Assembly (NCBI RefSeq): GCF_022539665.2
Contig: NC_081337.1
Span: 5,742,679 to 5,806,678 of the forward strand
Direction: 5' to 3'
From: Daphnia carinata
Taxonomy: Eukaryota > Arthropoda > Branchiopoda > Diplostraca > Daphniidae
Length of the DNA: 64,000 nt
Below, piece by piece: positions 31,501-34,500 of this stretch. Within the stretch, counting starts at the first letter, position 1; the number at the start of each line of letters is the position of its first letter. Position numbers and translations under genes: made by a program. The notes under the pieces are model-generated. The model was not told where the DNA came from. It saw only the letters and a program-made list of their open reading frames with translations, and made no database searches.

Positions 31501-34500
31501 GGTTTTGCTGTTTACTCCAATATTTGGTTAGCCAAATGGTCGGAAGCTGGAAACACGACTTCCAATAACCACACTATCGAACAACAAAGGGATATCTACT
31601 TAGGTGTCTACGGAGCGCTTGGTTTCGGACAAGGTAAGCTGTTGATTCTATAATACAGTTAGCTGATGTAAGCCCCTTGTAAGAACTCGAATTTACCATA
31701 TACAAGATGTCAGAAGAAAGCCTGAATTATAGGCACAGTAAGTATACTCTCTCTTTCTGAGTATTTCTGAGTTAGCCTTTAGCTTCATCCCAAACTAATT
31801 CATTATTAACATAACCCTGGACACACTCTGTTCAAAAAGTAACTGTATTTAGGTATTAATTCTTACAATAATAGTTTACTCGGTTATGTGCATGGCTATT
31901 AACACTAACAGTCGGCTCCTTCGGTATTTCCTTCGTCGCCTTGTAGCTATTTTTTTGCTGTTTGGAAGTATCACGATTGCCCTTGGTTGCCTTAACGCTT
32001 CTGCATTCTTGCATGAGGGTATGATTTCCCGCACTTTCCGCCTTCCCATGTCGTTCTTCGATACGACACCCATCGGTCGCATCGTAAATCGATTCGCTAA
32101 GGACGTGGACGTTGTCGACAATCTCATTCCATCCAGCATCCGTACAGCTCTTCTGTGCTTCCTATCGGTATGTTGGGAAAAGAATGCGGTTTAATTTTTC
32201 GATGAGTGCGAAGCACTTCATTTAAGTACATGGCCTTTCTCCATTTGTCTAAAGGTAGGTGATCTGTTTTTGCATGATTACTGTTGTATGGTCTTGTCAG
32301 ACAAGTTTCATGTTTGTCAAGTATATTTGTTGGAATCCTTCGAGTAGTGGTGCTGAGTAGCTAGTCTCACCTTGTTCCGTTTTAATTCTGTTGGGTTGTC
32401 GATGCTGTTTTGTGGGAAAGTTAATATCTTCCGCCCCTCATGTATGTTTTGGCTCTGTTGTACAGCCATTATGATGATGTTTGCTTCTGTCCTACTGGGC
32501 CTGGCATCGTTGCGAGCCGCAAGAACTTTGCATATCCGCCTTATTGGCGACGTCCTTCGTTTACCTATGGTGTTTTTCGATACTACCCCAACCGGGCGGT
32601 TGCTAAATCGTTTCAGCAAAGACGTCGATGTTCTGGACAACACTTTGCCGTTCGTCATTCGTGGTTGGATCACAACATTATTACAAGTACCGAAGCTCTT
32701 ATTTTTCGTAAATTATCAAGTAGAGGTACAAATTGTGTGCCAGTAATTTTGGGCTTGAGTTGGTGGGAAAGGTTTGCGTTTCATTTTTACCCATCCACTC
32801 GAAGGATTCACTCAAATATTGTACTTACAAGCAAGTAAAGAAAGATAGTAATGAACGTTGCAGCTCGATTGAGATGTCATAAAATTGTGAAATGTGAGAT
32901 TTACATATTGTTCAATTTGAATTAATGTTTGTTTCGCAGCCGTATTTTCGGGCAGCGAGATCTTGATATATCACGCGGCGGCACGCGCATCGCGTGTCTT
33001 GCACGAGTGTTGTATTAAACATGTCCTTCGTGCACCTATGGCCTTCTTCGATACCATTCCTATTGGAAGAATAGTGTCACGTTTTTCGCAAGACATCGAC
33101 GCTGTTGACACTCGTCTTCCCGCAATCATAGTCGACTGGCTCTACTGCTTGTTAGACGTAAATTTGAATTGAATCCTTCGAGTGTTCACGTTTTCCTCTT
33201 CGATCATTCTTTAGTTAAGCGTACTGGTTTTCTTAGAATTTTCTCCTTTTCTTTTTTTAAATTCAATGAATTGAAAATCTGCAATATAGGTAGTAAGTAC
33301 TATACTGGTTATCGGTGTTGGAACACCGATCTTCTTCGCAGTAGCCATACCAATTGGAGTCTTCTACTATTGGATTCAGGTAGATGTTTTGTGGAAAATC
33401 TATTGAACTAAAAACTTGACGCAAAAATTACTTTAGAATGTTTATGTGGCTTCGTCGAGACAACTTAAACGTCTAGAATCAGTTTCACGATCCCCGATTT
33501 ATTCCCACTTCGGCGAAACACTTACCGGTAATTTGTATTTACAGTTTACAATTGGATCTAATATTCACGCAATTGGTTTCCATGTTTTTCTTTAGGTGCA
33601 ACTGTCATTCGTGCTTATGGCCAAGAACAGCGTTTCATTAAAGAATCTGAGTCACGCGTAGACCTCAATCAAGTCTGTTATTACCCAAGTGTTGTTGCCA
33701 ATCGGTGGTTGTCCGTAAGATTGGAAACGATCGGTAATTTGGTAGTGCTGTTCGCTTCCCTGTTTGCTGTTATTGAAAGAGAGAAAGGAACGATGGACCC
33801 CGGTTACGTTGGACTGTCCATCACCTACGCCCTTAGTGTAACTAAGAAGCTAATCATTATCCAATGGTATAATTACTTATGCGTTCATTTAATATTTTTA
33901 GATTACACAAACGCTCAACTGGTTCATGCGCATGACTTCTGAAGTTGAAACGAACATCGTAGCTGTAGAGAGAATCAAAGAGTACAGTGAAGCCGTGCAA
34001 GTATGTTTCATTTGATTGTTCAGTAGCGTCTACGTATTAAAGGGTATGAAAACCTTGAAACTAGGAAGCTTCGTGGGACCATGGAAAGCGTGATCCACCA
34101 AATACATGGCCTGACAAAGGCAAAGTTTCTTTCGAGAAATATGAAGTACGCTACAGAGAGGGACTGGACTTGGTCATCAAAGGAATTTCCTGTGAAATTG
34201 AAGGTGGTGAAAAGGTAAGTTTGCACGCATTGATGAATTTCGTTTTTTCAGATTGCTTGACCTTTAATTATGACGTTTAACAGGTAGGCATTGTTGGACG
34301 TACAGGAGCGGGAAAATCTTCATTGACGTTGGCGCTGTTCCGTATCATCGAAGCTGCTGCTGGCAAAATTACAATCGACGGAATTGATATTGCTGATTTG
34401 GCACTACACAAACTACGTTCTCGGCTGACCATCATTCCCCAGGTAAAGATAAAGGGCGAAAAGTCTATCATCTTCAAGAATAAGCATTTTTATTTGTGAA

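Follow-up and report, generated by a model that had tools for sequence, protein, structure and literature searches.

The best explanation, and a moderately probable one, for three paralogous exon copies (21a, 21b, and 21c) found side by side in Daphnia carinata is that they form a mutually exclusive tandem cluster in the Daphnia MRP1 gene. The introns of this cluster hold one docking site, located between 21b and 21c, and two selectors, s1 and s2, each of which is complementary to it; this complementarity is real and unlikely to be due to chance. The mechanism that we favor, with a modest degree of confidence, is a toggle in which the central docking site pairs with either s1 or s2 and thereby chooses 21c versus 21b. 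An earlier note, made from the letters of this DNA alone, had proposed a competing RNA-pairing switch among the three exons; that reading appears sound in outline and is partly supported, with splicing control itself being a prediction from sequence. All features below lie on the forward strand, and positions refer to the window, the whole 64-kb stretch of D. carinata DNA that was analyzed, which lies at 5.74-5.81 Mb of contig C7 in an assembly of 108 Mb.

The MRP1 gene and its variable exons

The coding part of the MRP1/ABCC1 gene spans 25560-35099, with exons placed via AG/GT borders, and comprises 30 coding exons in a transcript carrying exon 12b and one copy of exon 21. Its open reading frame of 1553-1554 amino acids is uninterrupted in all six combinations of 12a or 12b with 21a, 21b, or 21c. 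The top PDB matches of the gene product are MRP1/ABCC1 structures, covering residues 16-1554; in the region queried (residues 980-1260), the product is identical to P0001, the D. carinata MRP1-like isoform X3, and 95% identical to the D. magna entries. On the strength of these PDB matches and the named D. carinata protein, the product is an ABCC transporter of the long type, nearest to MRP1, in agreement with the identity proposed earlier.

Exons 21a (31947-32167, 221 nt), 21b (32466-32686, 221 nt), and 21c (32940-33157, 218 nt) stand in tandem with AG/GT borders and a common frame, entered in phase 1 and left in phase 0. Their lengths all leave a remainder of 2 on division by three, and their pairwise amino acid identity is 45-49%; the synonymous distance is about 2 between 21a and 21b and undefined for 21a/21c and 21b/21c. 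As read off alignment rows, exon 21 corresponds approximately to residues 1035-1108 of human ABCC2, and it contains a conserved FFDTxPxGR motif preceded by a more variable stretch. Tandem homology, equal phases, and similar lengths, the features by which a mutually exclusive exon cluster is recognized, are all present here, and the earlier description of three tandem paralogs encoding one part of the second transmembrane domain (TMD2) holds in each particular.

A further variable pair lies in TMD1. Exon 12a (28910-29129) is split by a 73-nt intron (29025-29097) and reads 49 amino acids, as does exon 12b (29280-29426, 147 nt), which is without that intron. Exon 12a is found in P0001 of D. carinata, the D. 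magna entries have 12a or 12b, and 12b-like copies are present in D. magna P0006 and D. pulicaria P0029. Around 12a and 12b, the longest complements measured 6-9 nt over six intron pairs, with energies that were not unusual (per pair, 7 to 48 of 60 single-base shuffles were as low).

Several other features of the gene are of interest. A 21-nt micro-exon with AG/GT borders (27438-27458; KYFWDEFGK in context) lies between exons 6 and 7; a micro-exon-like insert occurs in D. magna P0015 and D. pulicaria P0029 and is absent from P0001. The MRP1 stop codon overlaps a donor-like GTATGA (35094-35099), and a splice from there to 35734 (35734-35913) would lengthen the C-terminus to one like that of D. 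pulicaria P0029. Elsewhere in the assembly, the region G000:C9, 8552084-8576070, has three stretches in tandem that share 65% identity with NBD2 and appear to be ABCC-like genes; their matches showed no triplicated exon.

Use of the copies in proteins and relatives

Copy number was examined in 11 proteins (8 from Daphnia, 2 from Diaphanosoma, and 1 Artemia fragment), several of them only predicted models and each standing for a 90% cluster within which isoforms are invisible. Exactly one exon 21 copy was present in all 11 (10 cladoceran proteins and the Artemia fragment). Exon 21a is used by P0001 of D. carinata and by P0003-P0007 of D. magna, with a 21a-like copy in P0033; 21b-like copies occur in D. 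magna P0015 and Diaphanosoma P0049, and a 21c-like copy in D. pulicaria P0029. The two Diaphanosoma proteins carry one 21a-like and one 21b-like copy, respectively. Each of the three types thus occurs singly in some Daphnia protein, which counts in favor of the toggle; counted against it is the fact that the D. carinata protein shows 21a alone, the 21b evidence coming from D. magna and that for 21c from D. pulicaria. The earlier claim that the variants are alternatives agrees with this single-copy pattern, although the part of it that had one switch choosing among all three went further than these proteins reach, the element offered for 21a being at chance level (see below). Between D. carinata and D. 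magna, 68 of 74 residues are identical in 21a and 68 of 74 in 21b; for 21c, 50 of 73 are identical between D. carinata and D. pulicaria, a different species pair from that used for 21a and 21b.

Among the 218 proteins listed from all species, at least 68 have two or more matches to exon 21, indicating that the multiplied exon is widespread in the gene family; fused models or duplicate genes would give such a pattern. Mosquito and other arthropod models have several copies matching this TMD2 exon. An exon tree was built from 46 rows, with 73 columns kept, using 8 typed exon peptides and domains from 13 proteins chosen from the 218 listed; domains scoring 45 or less or covering 55 or fewer profile positions were left out, and, with 8 of 43 inner branches firm, shallow groupings alone were used. 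The 21a and 21b types each cluster with a Diaphanosoma copy at support values (93/76 and 96/59) below the firm mark, and both are probably older than the split from Diaphanosoma. Three fish ABCC3-like models (P0145, P0146, and P0147) contain two differing tandem copies of this exon region, and the exon duplication may also be present in teleost ABCC3.

One candidate docking site and its two selectors

The docking site occupies 32782-32838 in the 21b-21c intron, with its core at 32796-32810. Selector s1 (32310-32359, 13-nt core 32333-32345) lies in the 21a-21b intron and forms a duplex with the docking site at -41.1 kcal/mol, while selector s2 (33142-33185, 15-nt core 33170-33184) is made up of the last 16 nt of 21c, the donor, and the start of the following intron, its duplex reaching -43.4 kcal/mol. 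The 13-mer GAATCCTTCGAGT is found at 32333-32345 and 33171-33183, with its exact reverse complement at 32797-32809 and no further copy in 64 kb; across the 108-Mb assembly it occurs four times, three of them at this locus, which speaks for the toggle. These coordinates confirm the 13-nt element that the earlier note had reported as two copies and an exact reverse complement. Its 14-nt third copy (33171-33184 with 32796-32809) is likewise present, the match really being 15 nt long (33170-33184 with 32796-32810), and the flanking ATTTG pairing lies within longer helices, broken in places, for which 39 and 36 pairs are predicted. Past the core, s1 and s2 continue in the same order, with the ATTTG helix followed by a helix against ACAAGC. 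Because 29 docking bases are used by both, the s1 and s2 helices exclude each other, which bears out the proposal of one docking site serving one selector at a time and is a further point for the toggle. Two docking bases pair G-U with s1 and G-C with s2, giving weak support for compensatory change within the locus.

Joint dinucleotide shuffling of the four cluster introns produced a three-way match of at least 13 nt in 0 of 2000 trials (the largest was 10), again in favor of the toggle; a single complement of at least 15 nt arose in 1 of 2000 and one of at least 13 nt in 22 of 2000. For s1 versus dinucleotide shuffles of its intron, a duplex as low was seen in 0 of 500 and a 13-nt complement in 0 of 2000, and the s2 duplex energy was reached by 0 of 500 shuffles. 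The s1 and s2 complements are the longest of 90 MRP1 intron pairs up to three introns apart, the next being an A/T-rich 11-mer. On the opposing side, lone 13-nt inverted pairs no more than 1.5 kb apart number 15 coordinate pairs in the window, of which 4 are at this locus and 11 are spread over about seven others, and this tells against the toggle. Just one other three-way match exists in the window, at 54.9-56.7 kb, where an A/T-rich word is complementary to itself. A dispersed repeat was considered and rejected, given the four genomic occurrences of the 13-mer and the finding that 32168-33290 matched itself alone (very common words skipped). A search of 31000-34500 for known structured RNAs returned no Rfam match at gathering scores. 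The docking arm also contains, at 32822-32828, TACTTAC, the U1 snRNA word that pairs with donors; in the predicted helix it is out of register with the 21c donor.

A docking site with above-chance complementarity to several selectors, as in docking-selector systems, is found here. The selector per variable exon usual in described clusters is not: there are two strong selectors for three exons. The cluster therefore works like a docking-selector system but is not a full member, because no selector was found for 21a. In the intron preceding 21a, neither duplex energy nor longest complement exceeded what shuffles gave. The TCCTTCG matches near the 21a acceptor (31918-31935), which the earlier note had put forward as the only candidates for this exon, proved to be at chance level: shuffles of that intron equaled its duplex energy in 147 of 500 cases and its longest complement in 488 of 2000, and the matches were rejected as a pairing element. 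A local arm directly upstream of the docking site (32723-32774, -29.7 kcal/mol) is a weak candidate for a third docking partner and suggestive only: 7 of 500 shuffles had an energy at least as low, and an exact complement as long as its best one, 6 nt, arose in 1563 of 2000, which is ordinary.

The 21c donor, codon choice, and reading frame

The two helices differ in what they cover. The s2 helix spans the 21c donor (33157/33158) together with about 15 nt of coding sequence, reaching back to 33143, which favors the toggle; the bases predicted to pair are 33143-33152 and 33154-33157 in the exon and 33158, 33162, and 33163 in the donor. Donor bases 33159-33161 remain unpaired as an internal loop in this helix, and this weighs against the toggle. 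The s1 helix contacts no splice site. The suggestion that pairing loops out either 21b or 21c consequently needs amending: each stem does enclose one exon, but the loops are unlike, the s2 helix covering a donor and coding sequence and the s1 helix touching no splice site. The position of the s2 helix suggests that s2 pairing would turn 21c off, a direction that we infer.

Codon choice at the end of 21c looks tuned to favor this pairing. Of 1728 unweighted synonymous codings for the last six codons of 21c, 24, among them the real one, reach this level of pairing, a result counted for the toggle. When codings were weighted by the codon use of the gene, 52 of 3000 were as good over six codons, 38 of 3000 over five, and 45 of 3000 over twelve; for ten other exon ends set against the same docking site, 316 to 3000 of 3000 weighted codings were as good. 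The codon signal is a single test at about 1-2%, which is held against the toggle.

The acceptors of 21a, 21b, and 21c score below 27, 27, and 26, respectively, of the 27 acceptors elsewhere in the gene, in keeping with the toggle. The 21b donor is weak and outscores only 2 of the 27 other donors. These 27 reference sites score themselves, making the ranks approximate. With so weak a donor, 21b may need activation rather than release, a consideration that runs counter to the toggle. Default use of 21a through a strong donor was rejected, since its donor scores 5.75, less than the 21c donor at 6.66 and the median of 6.78 for the 27 others. In 5 of 5 combinations with zero, two, or three copies, an early stop follows about 40 to 82 codons past exon 20, and this also counts for the toggle. 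A wrong copy number throws the transcript out of frame, an effect that could by itself account for exclusivity at the mRNA level; for the same reason, exclusive use in mRNA would not prove pairing.

Equilibrium folding of 31634-33289 places 0.998 of the ensemble in the s2 state and about 4e-8 in the s1 state, which is 10.5 kcal/mol worse, a finding that counts against the toggle. Since s1 pairing is disfavored at equilibrium, a switch would require transcription timing or a protein, and s1 would lose in the absence of both. In folded transcripts ending before s2, the docking core is on the local arm with a probability of 0.35-0.40 versus 0.08-0.20 on s1.

A proposed toggle and its rivals

In the toggle, docking on s2 would lay a helix over the 21c donor, such that 21c is skipped and 21b or 21a used, whereas docking on s1 would loop out 21b and free the 21c donor, leading to use of 21c. 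Two pairing states make this a toggle of 21b and 21c, and 21a would probably be taken when neither is chosen. Transcripts with zero, two, or three copies would lose frame and be expected to decay, such that errors are removed. The same elements can also be read in the opposite sense, as activating stems of the srp type in which an enclosing stem promotes its exon; s1 would then select 21b, s2 would select 21c, and the local arm, masking the docking site, would leave 21a as the default. Each stem encloses exactly one exon, PMC6071210 describes activating stems around each srp exon with a similar model for MRP1, the weak 21b donor could want help, and a local arm exists. Although the stems surround 21b and 21c as in srp-type bidirectional pairing, the s2 stem covers the 21c donor and should hinder U1 rather than help it, and the local arm is weak, with the 7 of 500 shuffles and the ordinary exact complement given above. 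We regard activation as unlikely, if a serious contender. Somewhat more doubtful is a three-position lock, in which s2 would seal the 21c donor by means of the codons of 21c, s1 would loop out 21b and release 21c, and the local arm would yield 21a as the default.

The pairing elements might also have another role or none, with ordinary factors choosing the exons and only single-copy mRNAs surviving. The shared remainder of 2 and the early stops after all five wrong copy numbers fit such a frame filter, as does the TMD1 pair, in which 12a and 12b are alternative in proteins, no similar pairing having been found around them; such a filter does not, however, account for the three-way complementarity, matched by 0 of 2000 shuffles, or for the biased codons at which 21c ends, and we think it improbable that the filter acts alone. 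It is very hard to credit that the elements are passive relics of exon duplication, that is, an old hairpin arm copied with its exon and not yet decayed. PMC6071210 does propose that duplication of one arm yields two selectors, but among exons with 45-49% protein identity and synonymous distances of about 2 or undefined, a neutral identity of 13-15 nt should be gone, and the grouping of the 21a and 21b types with Diaphanosoma copies, sub-firm as its support is, points the same way.

The alternative exons alter a stretch of the second transmembrane domain in a toxin-exporting kind of pump, and Daphnia is widely used in toxicity tests. As a compact case, with three exons and one docking site in about 1.3 kb, the cluster is suited to the question of activation versus donor hiding. 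If the signal in the final codons of 21c holds in other Daphnia, coding sequence would be constrained by splicing structure, and if the three-position lock were true, the choice of variant would lie partly in synonymous codons and be set by the order of transcription.

Comparison with known systems

Daphnia is a crustacean, and the earlier note had cited insects as precedent. Two variable regions within one MRP1 gene are also a feature of Drosophila dMRP/CG6214, in which Grailles is said to have described two variable exons in 2003; Daphnia MRP1 differs in having three copies in TMD2. An "8a 4b isoform" of Drosophila dMRP is named in PMC6185855, and a survey of Daphnia pulex ABC proteins has a protein grouping with Drosophila CG6214, no word beginning "splic" being present in its text (PMC2680897). 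In the titles and abstract openings searched, no Daphnia MRP1 exon cluster was found in print, although Yue et al. (2017) may hold one.

PMC6071210 cites independent exon duplications in the MRP genes of several phyla as well as competing RNA structures in MRP1 (Yue et al. 2017, RNA Biol 14:1399), whose docking site it puts downstream of the exon cluster. The Daphnia cluster resembles the latter, as cited there, in gene, in its tandem, apparently mutually exclusive copies, and in putatively competing intronic pairings; unlike them, it has a docking site within the exon array, after the second copy and before the third. The same article states that the internal introns of the clusters studied did not tend to inter-pair, whereas in Daphnia both s1 and the docking site belong to internal introns. 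With Dscam exon 6, 14-3-3zeta, and Mhc, the Daphnia cluster shares a lone docking site, more than one selector, and a single pairing at any time; there the docking site sits at one end of the cluster, whereas in Daphnia it is central, with selectors upstream and downstream, the latter over a donor (PMC6071210). The stems of Drosophila tabulated in PMC6027157 measure 13-22 bp, a range that counts for the toggle.

Partial parallels exist for the placement of s2. In Coleoptera, the selectors of Dscam1 exon 6 also lie partly inside the variable exon, the exonic portion being tied to short introns (PMC8042237); s2 of Daphnia, in comparison, spans the donor of its own exon. A helix hiding a 5' splice site interferes with recognition in MAPT exon 10 (PMC11802352); in Daphnia, the strand that would hide the donor is a docking site open to a rival partner. 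Competing RNA pairing in MRP1 is thus known; what sets the Daphnia gene apart is a central docking site, a first copy, 21a, for which no selector was found, and a selector that spans a donor.
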